A stretch of DNA of 26,812 nucleotides, from positions 1 through 26,812 of the IMG/VR virus record IMGVR_UViG_3300037840_000263; one strand, 5' to 3'. The notes under the pieces were generated by a model. The model ran no database searches. It saw only the letters and a program-made list of their open reading frames with translations, and had not been told where the DNA came from. A program made the translations under genes and the position numbers. Below, piece after piece: positions 21,995 through 26,045 of the stretch (position 1 is its first letter; every line of letters begins with the position of its first letter). Source of the stretch: a virus.

Positions 21995-22144
21995 ATGGAC
22001 GCCCAGCGGTACATGCTCATGTCCGAGGCCGAGACTTACATGCGGGTGTGGATGGCTGAGGTCCGGTCGGCGATGCTCAAGTTGCCGGAGGAGTTACTGC
22101 TTGTCAATAAGCTTCGCGCCGATACTGAGCAGCACAAGAATTAA
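21995..22144 (+). CDS. 49-aa protein after the portal, unknown
   Basis: Starts at the base following the portal stop (TAGATG) and is helical and acidic-basic mixed (MDAQRYMLMSEAETYMRVWM, EVRSAMLKLPEELLLVNKLR). The stretch R..ML(K)LPEEL resembles the C-terminal helix region of the small terminase at 80-730 (RNQLLRLPSEL). It may therefore be a remnant or paralogue of that domain. The spacing supports translation. No function is assigned. Confidence 0.45.
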   Translation: MDAQRYMLMSEAETYMRVWMAEVRSAMLKLPEELLLVNKLRADTEQHKN

Positions 22145-22276
22145 TAGCAACGCACAACACTCACCAATCACAAAAGTGCGTGTGATCTTCTGAATTGAAA
22201 GTACGCTGATTATAGTTCCTATTACCCAGCCGCCTAAGCATGTGGGCAGCAAACTTAGAAAGGTTTTCATTTGGTT

Positions 22277-22465
22277 TTAGGTCCTACGCCGCTTCCCGCC
22301 TTCTGTCTGTTTTGGCAACGCGATCTCCAGTAACCTAAGCACTGCCGCTGCCCGCGATTCAATCCGATGGTCAAAGCGCCAGTTATCCACCCGTTCCAGC
22401 AGTACGCGCGGGATCTGGAAATGCAGGAAACTTTTGCCGCCAACCTCTTTGACTGTTTGCTCCAT
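22277..22465 (-). CDS. ribbon-helix-helix DNA-binding regulator
   Basis: 62 aa from the ATG at 22465-22463, preceded by GAGGT. The first half gives the beta strand of an RHH fold (SFLHFQIPRVLLERVDNWRF). The second gives DHRIESRAAAVLRLLEIAL, the usual second helix of CopG/Arc-like proteins, and a basic tail. Such proteins dimerise and bind short palindromes. It is antisense to the surrounding head genes and has its own promoter overlapping a perfect palindrome (22622-22637). It probably regulates itself and the divergent 211-aa gene. Its last codons overlap a copy of the GTAGGWCCTAC repeat. Confidence 0.65.
   Translation of the reverse strand: MEQTVKEVGGKSFLHFQIPRVLLERVDNWRFDHRIESRAAAVLRLLEIALPKQTEGGKRRRT
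22278..22287. repeat. dispersed palindrome GTAGGWCCTAC, copy 5 (first base altered)
   Basis: TAGGTCCTAC followed by GCC. The base before is T instead of G. It makes up the last codons and stop of the RHH gene on the - strand (R-R-T-stop). Confidence 0.6.
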
Positions 22466-22476
22466 GTATTTAGGTA

Positions 22477-22601
22477 CCTCACCAAACCGCACCGAACCCC
22501 ACCGTAGCTAACCTAACCGAACCTCGCACAACCGGGCCGAATCTTGCCTAGCCTCACCCGACCTATCCCGACCCAGCCTTGCCGTAGCAAACCGTGCCTG
22601 T
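22477..22601 (-). repeat. pentamer-periodic array (left), 25 units of NNNGG on the - strand
   Basis: Read on the + strand, 125 bases divide exactly into 25 units of five: CCTCA, CCAAA, CCGCA, CCGAA, CCCCA, CCGTA and so on. Twenty-one begin with CC, and C is at position 2 in 24 of 25, while the other bases vary freely. On the - strand this is NNNGG, running from the predicted transcription start of the RHH gene to just before its ribosome site. It is neither an exact tandem repeat nor a coding pattern. Confidence 0.8.
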
Positions 22602-22608
22602 AATAAGA

Positions 22609-22637
22609 AGTATAATAGGTATTGACAGTACTGTCAA
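22609..22637 (-). promoter_or_regulatory. promoter for the RHH gene with overlapping perfect palindrome operator
   Basis: TTGACAGTACTGTCAA (22622-22637) is a perfect 16-bp palindrome. Read on the - strand, its first six bases are a consensus -35. TATACT (22614-22609) lies at exactly 17 bases spacing. Transcription would start near 22602, so the leader is the pentamer array. On the + strand the same palindrome gives a TTGACA ahead of the 211-aa gene, with only a weak extended -10 (TGCTACCTT). A binding site for the RHH protein is the natural guess. Confidence 0.6.
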
Positions 22638-22673
22638 CCCCATGCTACCTTCTATACCAGAGGTATTAACGGT

Positions 22674-23309
22674 ATGGCAAAATCAGCCGCTCAAAAGGTC
22701 ACCGTTCTCAGTCCCGTTTCTAACGAAGCTGAGAATCTTATCAACTATGAACAACCTTACATCGCCGCTATCGATGTGGTCGGCGCTTCCGCCCTCCTGT
22801 TTCATCGATGGAGCGTGGATGGGGTTGAGGCTAAGTCCAAAGCCGCTAAGGGCAGCAAGGCGAAGAAGACAGACGATCTCGACACCTACGTGTACCGGGA
22901 CGCGGACGGCTATCTCGCGATCCCCGGCGAGTATTTCCGCATGTCGATCATCAACGCAGCCAAGTTCAAGCAGGACCCGCGCTCTCCGCGCAAATCCGCC
23001 ATGGACCTGTTCAAGGCCGGACTCACCGTGCTGGACGAAGTCTGCTCGCTTGGGGTCAAGGATTGGGATTACGTGGATCGCCGCCGGGTCGTCATCCAGC
23101 GTAGCGCCATCACCCGCGCCCGCCCTGCGATGAACGAAGGCTGGAAGGTGCAGGTCTCTCTCGGCGTCCTGCTGCCTGAGTACATCTCGCCTGCGTTGCT
23201 GAATGAGGTAATCCAGTTGTCCGGGCGACTGGTTGGGGTAGGTGACTTTCGCCCGACCTATGGGCGGTTCCAGGTGGTTGGGTACAACACGACAGAGTTT
23301 GCGGGCTAA
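22674..23309 (+). CDS. conserved phage hypothetical protein of 211 aa, flanked by pentamer arrays
   Basis: The sequence belongs to a family seen widely in phages, as I recall it: NYEQPYIAAIDVVGASALLF, then KKTDDLDTYVYRDADGYLAI and IPGEYFRMSIINAAKFKQDP. RSPRKSAMDLFK, DRRRVVIQRSAITRARPA and the end RLVGVGDFRPTYGRFQV follow. No catalytic motif is visible, and the biochemical role is not known to me. It is soluble, with a Lys/Ala-rich insert (AKSKAAKGSKAKK). The ATG has AGAGGT nine bases upstream. It is divergent from the RHH gene and separates the portal from the protease, so it looks like cargo of an accessory cassette. Confidence 0.65.
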   Translation: MAKSAAQKVTVLSPVSNEAENLINYEQPYIAAIDVVGASALLFHRWSVDGVEAKSKAAKGSKAKKTDDLDTYVYRDADGYLAIPGEYFRMSIINAAKFKQDPRSPRKSAMDLFKAGLTVLDEVCSLGVKDWDYVDRRRVVIQRSAITRARPAMNEGWKVQVSLGVLLPEYISPALLNEVIQLSGRLVGVGDFRPTYGRFQVVGYNTTEFAG

Positions 23310-23435
23310 TTTTCAGAGGTAGTCTATGGTGAGGTTCGACAGTGTATGGTCAGGTTAGGTAAGCCTCGGTTTGGCTTGCTCCGGTGATTGTCGGGTGCCG
23401 TATGTTGTGGTGTTCTATGGCTTGGTGCGGCAGGG

Positions 23436-23496
23436 GCCTTATGAGGCAACCATTTTAGTAGGTCCTACAAAGGTGAGAATGGTTACCTGATAAGGT
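23436..23496 (+). ncRNA. hairpin 1 of a two-copy structured element
   Basis: Outer stem GCCTTAT/ATAAGGT, a G.G mismatch, then AGG/CCT, a C.A mismatch, and inner stem AACCATT/AATGGTT (23448-23454 with 23478-23484). The loop of 23 bases contains a GTAGGTCCTAC palindrome. Hairpin 2 has the same plan with changed but still paired bases, which suggests a selected structure in RNA or single-stranded DNA. Confidence 0.55.
23458..23468. repeat. dispersed palindrome GTAGGWCCTAC, copy 6
   Basis: GTAGGTCCTAC followed by AAA, in the loop of hairpin 1. Hairpin 2 has only a six-base loop (TTAGCT), and hairpin 1 begins its loop with TTAG, so the palindrome may have been inserted there. Confidence 0.65.
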
Positions 23497-23582
23497 GAGG
23501 CTCGGTCGGCCTTGGTATGGTGCTGTATGCAATGGTGTTGTGTGGTAAGCATCGGCTTGGCAAGGCAGGATAAGGTATGGGC

Positions 23583-23630
23583 ACTTTATGAGGCAGCCGC
23601 TCTTTAGCTAGAGCGGTTACTTGATAAGGT
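23583..23630 (+). ncRNA. hairpin 2 of a two-copy structured element
   Basis: Outer stem ACTTTAT/ATAAGGT, the same G.G mismatch, AGG/CTT (one G.T pair), the same C.A mismatch, then inner stem AGCCGCTCT/AGAGCGGTT (23595-23603 with 23610-23618), loop TTAGCT. Compared with hairpin 1, the inner stem is wholly different in sequence but still pairs. Confidence 0.55.
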
Positions 23631-23771
23631 TCGGTCAGGTAGGGCTCGCTAAGGCAGTGCGCCGGTTGGGTGTGGCACGGTCCGGTCCGGTGGGCTGAGG
23701 CTTGTCACGGTTTGCTGTGGTATGGTCTTCTAAATCGTTGACCACTTGATTTGTGTTACCATCCTGCTCAG

Positions 23772-26045
23772 ATGAAGTCTCATCTGGCACATCTCAGTCA
23801 ACTGGCTTTCAACTCTCCGCTGGCAATCTTGCCGTCTCATGCGGAGACTGTTTTATCCGCTCTAGGTCCCCGGCTTGCCATTGACACAGACGGCCTCGCC
23901 GAATTACTTAAATCAGGCGTTCTGTCCGCTGATGGTCAATTCTACTCCTGGGACCAGAACGCTCCCAAGCAACTGCAATCCGGTGACAATGAAAAGCCTT
24001 ACGTACTTACCGAAAGCGGCATAGCCGTTGTTGACATTGTCGGTACGTTGATGGAGTCCGGCGGTTGGTTGAGCGCTTTATCTGGTTGTAGTTCCTACGA
24101 AGGCATCCGGGCGGCGGTAGATTGCGCGATGGATGACCCAGATGTGCGTGGTATCTTGTTTAGTATCAACAGCCCAGGCGGATCGACGCACGGACTTTTT
24201 GACTTGACGGATCACCTCTACTCCCTCCGTGGCCAGAAACCGACTTGCGCCGTCGCCAAAAACTGCGCCGCTTCCGCCGCCTACGCTATCGCCTCCTGCG
24301 CCGATAACATCTGGCTCACCCGCACCGCCGGCGTCGGCAGCATCGGCGTATTCGCCCTGCACACCGACCAATCTGGGGCAGACAAGAAAGAAGGGATGGC
24401 GTATAAGTACGTCAAATCCCGGCGTAAGAAGACAGACGGCAATCCGCACGAGCCTCTGTCCAAATCCGCCGAGGCCGACATGCAGGCAGAGGTTGACCGG
24501 CAGGATGGCTTGTTCGTCTCGCTCGCCGCCCGCAACCGGGGCGTGTCGCAATCTGAGATCGGGGACCTTGAAGCAGCCATGTTATTCGCCGACTCCGCCG
24601 TCCCCCTGCTGGCCGACTATGTAGGCACCTTCGAGGACGCCATCGCCGCTATCACTGGACAAGTGACTGGGGATCGTGATAGTCTACTTTCAACAAGTAG
24701 TAACAAAGGCTCAAGGCGCGGTAAAGGCCAAGGCCGATTAAAGGCAAGCACACAAGAAGCAGCAGCAGATGGCCAGGAAACTGGTGAAGAGTTAGAGGAT
24801 GCTGATAACGTGATGCCTGCAATCCCGCCTCACAAAACGAAGACCTCATCCGCTGCCTGGGACGGGCCGGAGAACAAGAAGCGTCTTAGCAAAGGCAAGG
24901 ATGCGGCCTACTACCGGTCGGCATATGCGTTCGTGAAGCCGGATGGCGACCCCAAGGTTAAGGCCAGTTACACGTTCATCCACCACGAGGTCGGGGCGAA
25001 TGGCGACGTGGGTGCCGCCAATATCAAGGGCTGTCAATCCGGCATTGCGATCTTGAATGGCGGGCGCACCGGCACAGTATTGAAAGGTGCCGACCGCAAG
25101 GGCACGTATCGACATTTAAGTGCCCATTTGGAAGATGCTGGCGAGACGCCCTCGCCCCTGAAGAGTTACAAGACTTACCTTGCTGGCGTAGTGGCCTACG
25201 CCGCCGAAACTGAGAACCAACCTCTGGCTGCTCAAGCCAGTTCCATCCTCGCCGCTTTGCAAGTAGCGGATGAAAATTCCTCTGATGATGAAGGAGATTC
25301 TGCCATGGCTAAGATCCTCGACCTAGACGCCGTCAAGCCCGACGAAAAAGACGATGACAAGAAAGAGGCCAAAGGTGGCAAGAAGGGCGATGGCTACATG
25401 AAGGGTAAGGGCAAGGAAGAGGACGAAGAGGAAGACGACGAGGAAGACGACGAGGACGAGGACAAGAAGAAAGCCTCGGCCAAAAAAGAAGACAAAGAAA
25501 ACGACGAGGGAGATGACAAGGAAGACGAAGAGGATGAAGACGACGAAGAGGACGAAGACAAGAAGAAGGCTACTAAAGGCAAGGGCAGCAAGAAAGGGAA
25601 ACGGGCCGACGTGACACAGATCACTGTTGACGGCCGCGCCGAATCTCAGGCTATTGCCGAACTCTGCACCCTCGCCGGCTGCCCGGAGAAAGCCGCCAAG
25701 TACATCCTCGACGGACGCTCTGCCTCCCAGGTCCGCAAGTTCCTGATGGACAAGCGTGCCCGCGCCTCCATGGAATCTACCGTGGACGCCAGTTTCGGCC
25801 TGCCCGCCGGCGGCGACAACCCGGCCCTCAAAATCTTCCAGCAGGCGCGGGTGTCGGTCGCCCAGAACAAGGACCTGCCGCCGTCCGCTGCCTTTGAAGC
25901 TGCCATCCGCCAGAACCCGGCCCTTTACGAAGCGGCCCGCGACATGCGGGAGACCGCCGCGCTGACCACCAACAACCGCCGTCAGTACGCCTCCATCTGC
26001 CGGTCGCAGTTTGCCGCGATGGGGCTCTCGGTCGGCGGACAGTAA
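23772..26045 (+). CDS. prohead protease (S49/SppA family) fused to a WDG-type domain and a scaffold-like region
   Basis: 757 aa from the ATG at 23772; a TTG at 23751 is an alternative. Residues about 85-300 are an S49 protease as in lambda gpC: ILFSINSPGGSTHGLFDLTD, then NCAASAAYAIAS with the likely nucleophile Ser168, then AGVGSIGVF. The Lys region VKSRRKKTDGNPHEPLS contains the probable partner of the Ser-Lys dyad. A second domain (about 355-480; SSAAWDGPENKKRL ... YRHLSAHLEDAGETPSPLKS) resembles the C-terminal domain attached to many prohead proteases. The last third is a very acidic D/E/K stretch and a helical end. These enzymes cut scaffold and capsid proteins during head maturation. A nested start lies inside (see 25305). 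Confidence 0.82.
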   Translation: MKSHLAHLSQLAFNSPLAILPSHAETVLSALGPRLAIDTDGLAELLKSGVLSADGQFYSWDQNAPKQLQSGDNEKPYVLTESGIAVVDIVGTLMESGGWLSALSGCSSYEGIRAAVDCAMDDPDVRGILFSINSPGGSTHGLFDLTDHLYSLRGQKPTCAVAKNCAASAAYAIASCADNIWLTRTAGVGSIGVFALHTDQSGADKKEGMAYKYVKSRRKKTDGNPHEPLSKSAEADMQAEVDRQDGLFVSLAARNRGVSQSEIGDLEAAMLFADSAVPLLADYVGTFEDAIAAITGQVTGDRDSLLSTSSNKGSRRGKGQGRLKASTQEAAADGQETGEELEDADNVMPAIPPHKTKTSSAAWDGPENKKRLSKGKDAAYYRSAYAFVKPDGDPKVKASYTFIHHEVGANGDVGAANIKGCQSGIAILNGGRTGTVLKGADRKGTYRHLSAHLEDAGETPSPLKSYKTYLAGVVAYAAETENQPLAAQASSILAALQVADENSSDDEGDSAMAKILDLDAVKPDEKDDDKKEAKGGKKGDGYMKGKGKEEDEEEDDEEDDEDEDKKKASAKKEDKENDEGDDKEDEEDEDDEEDEDKKKATKGKGSKKGKRADVTQITVDGRAESQAIAELCTLAGCPEKAAKYILDGRSASQVRKFLMDKRARASMESTVDASFGLPAGGDNPALKIFQQARVSVAQNKDLPPSAAFEAAIRQNPALYEAARDMRETAALTTNNRRQYASICRSQFAAMGLSVGGQ
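25305..26045 (+). CDS. nested in-frame scaffold protein (lambda Nu3-like arrangement)
   Basis: An ATG at 25305 lies in the frame of the protease gene and has a textbook ribosome site (AAGGAG at 25291-25296, 8 bases upstream). That is much better than the one of the full gene. It would give a 246-aa protein: a short lead MAKILDLDAVKPDEK, about 85 residues of D/E/K low complexity, then a helical C-terminal part (AELCTLAGCPEKAAKYILDG and later AFEAAIRQNPALYEAARDMR). In lambda the scaffold Nu3 is made from an internal start in gene C in just this way. The arrangement here is inferred from sequence. Confidence 0.65.
   Translation: MAKILDLDAVKPDEKDDDKKEAKGGKKGDGYMKGKGKEEDEEEDDEEDDEDEDKKKASAKKEDKENDEGDDKEDEEDEDDEEDEDKKKATKGKGSKKGKRADVTQITVDGRAESQAIAELCTLAGCPEKAAKYILDGRSASQVRKFLMDKRARASMESTVDASFGLPAGGDNPALKIFQQARVSVAQNKDLPPSAAFEAAIRQNPALYEAARDMRETAALTTNNRRQYASICRSQFAAMGLSVGGQ

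Follow-up and report, generated by a model that had tools for sequence, protein, structure and literature searches.

Two RNA hairpins lying between guide tracts in a phage genome probably act as separators in a VIPR guide array and as sites of guide processing, a reading to which we assign a probability of about two in three. VIPR became known only in 2026, with the suggestion that CRISPR effectors may descend from it; according to the main text of the preprint, the system combines a phage RAMP protein, Vipr, with guide RNAs (vrRNAs) that consist of 9-16 YNNGG repeats followed by a structured 3' tail and that find their DNA targets through the NN letters (PMC13142463). Here, we describe hairpin 1 (HP1, 23436..23496) and hairpin 2 (HP2, 23583..23630), both on the + strand of a 26,812-nucleotide stretch of viral DNA from IMG/VR (the window), together with the gaps between guide tracts at other VIPR loci. 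The hairpins probably mark the points at which a long transcript is divided into individual guides.

Results

The vipr gene (22674..23309, + strand) encodes a member of phrog_4652 (E 9e-17), a family annotated as of unknown function. Its product matches the structure of SUSP1 Vipr (PDB 36pp) at E 5e-5 as a single sequence and at E 1e-11 as a 29-sequence profile of its protein family (alignment A1). An AlphaFold model of the product (pLDDT 85.5) has Csm3/Cas7 as its top Foldseek matches (E 1e-6) and aligns to Csm3/Cas7 in VIA-align with Z up to 12.2 (166 aligned, rmsd 3.9). We identify the product as a Vipr-family protein with a Cas7/Csm3 (RAMP) fold, as modelled, and because of this protein match the locus is a VIPR system, in which the "right array" of the original prediction is three vrRNA guide tracts, an identity that prediction had missed. 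The genomic setting is a phage structural module (terminase gpA, lambda-type portal, S49 head protease), with the GGYNN array directly 3' of vipr and the head protease gene on the array's other side. The head-protease ORF includes a long acidic/lysine-rich low-complexity stretch (25395-25576, GAGGAC-type repeats).

Guide tracts were called with a pentamer hidden Markov model (HMM) of GGYNN units; by this model, 146 of 153 loci, this one among them, have a tract of at least 60 nt. Here, vipr is flanked on both sides, with tract 1 (23325..23435), tract 2 (23486..23580) and tract 3 (23620..23726, with no hairpin after it) on the + strand, and a divergent left tract, also without a hairpin, on the - strand (22476..22598). 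The start of tract 2 overlaps the 3' arm of HP1, whose final AGG is in pentamer phase. Tracts have a preferred last unit, in that the final NN is AT, AA or GA in 56% of tract 3' ends vs 24% of inner units (n=269 tracts, with 6 tracts cut at contig ends left out), a bias reached in 0 of 1000 resamples. Two 8-unit target patterns occur in 12 and 3 loci in IMG/VR with flanking units matching at chance level, and no natural targets of the window guides were found in IMG/VR beyond chance. Two candidate targets were rejected as chance, the resemblance of the tract 3 antisense peptide to the head-protease SPGG motif, where matches stop at the searched units, and a plausible target peptide of the left tract, whose database matches are likewise confined to those units.

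On the - strand, a small repressor-like ORF (22277..22465) lies 3' of the left tract, matches phrog_4738 (transcriptional repressor, E 2e-7), and shares 50% identity over 42 aa with a similarly placed ORF at locus L003; from its sequence and position it is a candidate accessory (vap) gene or regulator. No Pfam family matched this ORF at E < 0.1, and a ribbon-helix-helix reading made by eye was dropped, Pfam having given no such family. The -10 end of a strong promoter-like site (TTGACA-17-TATACT, 11/12; 22609..22637, - strand) lies 10 bases ahead of the left tract. The site overlaps the palindrome TTGACAGTACTGTCAA (22622-22637), and this 16-bp palindrome is common to the site and to the space before vipr. 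Given this site, the left vrRNA could have its own transcription start.

HP1 and HP2 form the gaps that separate the three + strand tracts, and HP2 follows directly 3' of the tract end GGTATGG. Sequence, folding and a pair table bear out the positions and the layout first proposed for them, with a 7-bp outer stem, a G.G mismatch, 3 bp, a C.A mismatch and a 9-bp inner stem. Folded as RNA with flanks, HP1 reaches -27.1 kcal/mol (z -3.4) and HP2 -25.3 kcal/mol (z -3.9); the tighter "gap" segments of the HMM give on the whole milder z values in two runs (-2.3 and -1.6 for HP1, -4.2 and -2.7 for HP2). The strand opposite the array folds less stably, clearly so for HP2 (-15.3 kcal/mol) and with a smaller difference for HP1 (-21.8 kcal/mol). 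A tandem three-hairpin fold of HP1 and HP2 was rejected at -14.3 and -13.5 kcal/mol, the extended fold reaching -21.3 and -24.2 kcal/mol.

The inner stems were originally described as differing in sequence yet both pairing, and the outer stems as differing by paired or wobble changes, and this holds. The 21 arm positions comprise 12 identical pairs, 5 one-sided changes kept via G.U, 2 two-sided changes (A-U to G-C and U-A to C-G) and both mismatches unchanged, so that 19 of the 21 are paired and none of the 9 substitutions, every one a transition, disrupts pairing. Such retention of pairs has a probability of 0.08-0.10 under random transitions and 0.0013-0.0016 under substitutions of any type, and the observed covariation score is reached by 131 of 500 shuffles of the 3' letters. 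The pairing is real, and the window's two copies by themselves are weak evidence of selection.

Close copies of the window hairpins are few. The joined-arm pattern has 0 matches in IMG/VR, and a pattern of the 3' arm plus array finds four IMG/VR records, of which three (L155, L157 and L158) were set aside as one array with other, short hairpins and the fourth (L156) has no array row of its own. A covariance model of HP1 and HP2 has its best non-self match at locus L035 (E 0.08 in 558 kb; E 0.05 as L208, which is the same contig) and finds nothing in a further 170 kb. L035, the only convincing place outside the window, has two gap hairpins in which the 3' arm TGATRAGG is kept, and when these are joined with the window hairpins, three pairs have changed on both sides, in five cells, a level attained in 8 of 500 shuffles. 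The arrays of the nearest Vipr relatives (L003, L006, L040, L046 and L048) are uninterrupted, with no such hairpin gap. The original prediction, which named a lack of further copies in related genomes as evidence against a selected structure, thus gains one related contig from the model search and is partly contradicted by the joined-arm search and the nearest relatives.

Inter-tract gaps are nevertheless often structured across VIPR loci. In a first set of loci, gathered before hairpins entered any query, 15 of 39 gaps have z <= -2.1, in 12 loci that include the window and SUSP1. A larger set, with added queries using the Vipr proteins of L035 and L165, contains 99 distinct gaps, spread over 48 of its 245 loci; several contigs appear there under two locus names. 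Among its gaps of at least 20 nt, 51 of 86 (59%, a figure inflated by the choice of L035 and L165 for their hairpins) have z < -2, vs 9% of the 86 control stretches drawn from these loci; the median z is -2.66 vs 0.15 in controls (enrichment p 4e-16). For 47 of the 51 structured gaps, folding is more stable on the array strand than on the opposite one (mean over the 51, -30.7 vs -22.2 kcal/mol). Because of this bias, and because pairs changed on one side survive as G.U when read on the array strand, RNA from the array strand is favoured over single-stranded DNA, between which the original prediction had left the choice open; the strand difference at HP2 points the same way.

Strong covariation is found in class A, 15 hairpins from one subclade (L163-L184, alignment A5), with 12 two-sided pairs in an extended fold or 9 in a three-hairpin tandem fold; both folds fit, and for each the covariation score is reached in 0 of 500 shuffles. 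In every one of the 15, a 1x1 G.A mismatch divides the inner stem from the outer, an arrangement of the type seen in HP1 and HP2. The class A model (R2), run on the window with filters off, gives 4.7 bits at HP2 and no row at HP1; it also matches antisense inside the vipr gene of L031 (E 0.006). Homology of the window hairpins to class A or to the hairpins of L240 and L241 was rejected, as there is no class A model match and no convincing alignment.

The claim that the hairpins reflect a selected structure rather than chance is therefore upheld mainly by relatives, through gap enrichment and the 15-member covariation, and little by the window's own pair. Functionless inverted repeats, arisen by chance or mobile, that landed in the array would fit the lack of exact copies elsewhere in IMG/VR and their absence from the nearest relatives. 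Such an origin is highly improbable, given the enrichment over controls, the covariation of relatives' hairpins and the preservation of pairing by all nine changes between HP1 and HP2.

The gaps take several other forms. In many arrays the gaps are AT-rich and unstructured, or the array has no gap at all; short AT-rich linkers like ATACTTTGTTNATTT, without a hairpin, lie between tracts of about 56-206 nt at L017 (1385-1829, on the contig of L161), L023 (3813-3829) and L111 (2675-3034). L240 (2678-3110) and L241 (2698-3110) have six gaps of 49 nt in which almost the same hairpin, GCCTTATTGC..GCAAT, recurs; its start resembles that of HP1 (GCCTTAT). The Alicyclobacillus arrays L144 (1653-1747) and L147 (1666-1767) have a common gap element, CCCCGA..CTGTGCGCGGATTGCCCTGGTAG..AGTCCAAAACAG.TCGGG. 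At L210 (2679-3756), L212 (2683-2766), L213 (1034-1599), L218 (2483-2565) and L225 (2829-2910), tracts are separated by an 80-100-nt branched RNA, in which GTGTCCGCTG..TAGCGATACACGAGAG is conserved and two stems vary and which is possibly a ribozyme or other processing element; the array gaps of L210, L213 and L225 have no Rfam match at E up to 1. Stretches resembling a tRNA T-arm lie inside the arrays of L036 (near 3770) and L245 (3205-3271), in which ARAGORN called no tRNA.

A search of Rfam over positions 22000-24000 of the window, taken to E 10, came back empty, as did searches at gathering scores of the window, L003-L036 and 20 further loci. None of the array gaps searched matches Rfam; the matches listed below gathering scores fall outside array gaps and were set aside. 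These results weigh on the possibility that HP1 and HP2 are degenerate self-cleaving ribozymes, an idea suggested by their inter-tract position, which is that of the hammerheads interspersed in some arrays described in the main text of PMC13142463. Each is, moreover, a single hairpin without a hammerhead core, and we give a ribozyme origin very little credence.

A role in transcription or translation only, as attenuators or as insulators between the vrRNAs and the head-protease mRNA, would suit an array that sits between vipr and the head protease gene. Neither HP1 nor HP2 has the GC hairpin and T run of an intrinsic terminator, the sole terminator-like site being at 23834, within the next gene, and inter-tract hairpins recur in arrays with other settings; we regard such a role as quite unlikely.

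Whether hairpins separate guides or end them is informed by their distribution. In the 28 loci with structured gaps, structure follows 4 of 28 last tracts, an unselected figure, vs 55 of 64 inner tracts, a figure selected by the choice of loci. Since last tracts usually lack a hairpin, we read the hairpins as separators rather than universal 3' tails. The Escherichia phage phiSUSP1 offers a second line of evidence. In its VIPR locus (L037, 27664-29277, - strand), a hairpin carrying the motif GTCTTC..GAGGGT precedes every one of the four vrRNA tracts, and one more precedes vipr; the motif, which was derived from these same copies, is absent elsewhere in SUSP1's 90.7 kb. The class A model matches SUSP1 at E 0.0026, which carries little weight because the antisense match in L031 lies close to it, and the link between SUSP1's hairpins and the others rests on position and motif, not on this E-value. 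The SUSP1 vrRNAs have been sequenced and are about 100 nt long, and the main text of the preprint makes no mention of hairpins before the tracts (PMC13142463). A SUSP1 tract plus its pseudoknot tail, without the hairpin, comes to 92-113 nt; because these hairpins precede tracts and this length is near that reported, SUSP1 supports the separator reading.

Instead, each hairpin might form the mature 3' tail, or handle, of the vrRNA upstream of it, serve as a binding site for Vipr or an accessory protein, and take the place of the pseudoknot tail of SUSP1. They do come directly after the preferred last unit, where the SUSP1 tail starts, and sequence near the hairpin base is kept while the inner stem varies. 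We nonetheless consider this unlikely, as so few last tracts are followed by structure, tract 3 and the left tract of the window have no hairpin, and the SUSP1 hairpins lie 5' of the tracts, apart from the pseudoknot tails.

Discussion

Read as separators, the hairpins suggest a simple route to mature guides. Transcription of the array strand, together with vipr or following it, would yield a precursor of GGYNN tracts, each ending in a preferred last unit (e.g. GGTATGG or GGTGAGG) with the hairpin immediately 3'. A structure-specific nuclease, of which host RNase III would be the simplest candidate, could then cleave at the hairpin to release individual vrRNAs, whose 3' end the leftover half hairpin may cap.

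More tentatively, and at slightly less than even odds, the separator slot between VIPR guides may be filled by different RNA devices in different lineages (single hairpins, three-hairpin modules, 80-100-nt branched RNAs and short AT-rich linkers, as well as the hammerheads described in the main text of PMC13142463), the hairpins being processing sites that operate without a dedicated Cas6-like enzyme. If so, one transcript could yield several guides, as with CRISPR repeats. VIPR itself is known; the main text of the preprint does not mention hairpin-interspersed arrays and, hammerheads in some arrays aside, does not explain how multi-guide arrays are cut (PMC13142463). A recurrent, covarying gap hairpin is a concrete candidate for the vrRNA maturation step, and such hairpins could place guide boundaries in uncultivated phage genomes, as is needed for target decoding.

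Like the VIPR systems described in the main text of PMC13142463, the window has a Vipr-family protein with GGYNN tracts on both sides. Its HMM tracts measure 95-123 nt (~19-24 units) vs 9-16 repeats, and its mismatch-bearing inter-tract hairpins are of a kind not found in that text. Hammerhead-interspersed VIPR arrays (PMC13142463) resemble the window in having structured RNA between tracts that could release guides, and differ from it in that Rfam finds no hammerhead here. The tract end GGTATGG is common to the window and SUSP1, and the SUSP1 locus likewise has one hairpin per boundary, on the array strand; the hairpin sequences differ, and the SUSP1 hairpins come after a separate pseudoknot tail, no such tail having been recognised by eye in the window, where hairpins follow 2 of 4 tracts. 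CRISPR repeat hairpins are cut by Cas6 or RNase III. Unlike CRISPR repeats, VIPR gap hairpins keep neither sequence nor size between loci; the window array and CRISPR repeats have in common hairpins placed between the guides of what would be a polycistronic guide precursor.
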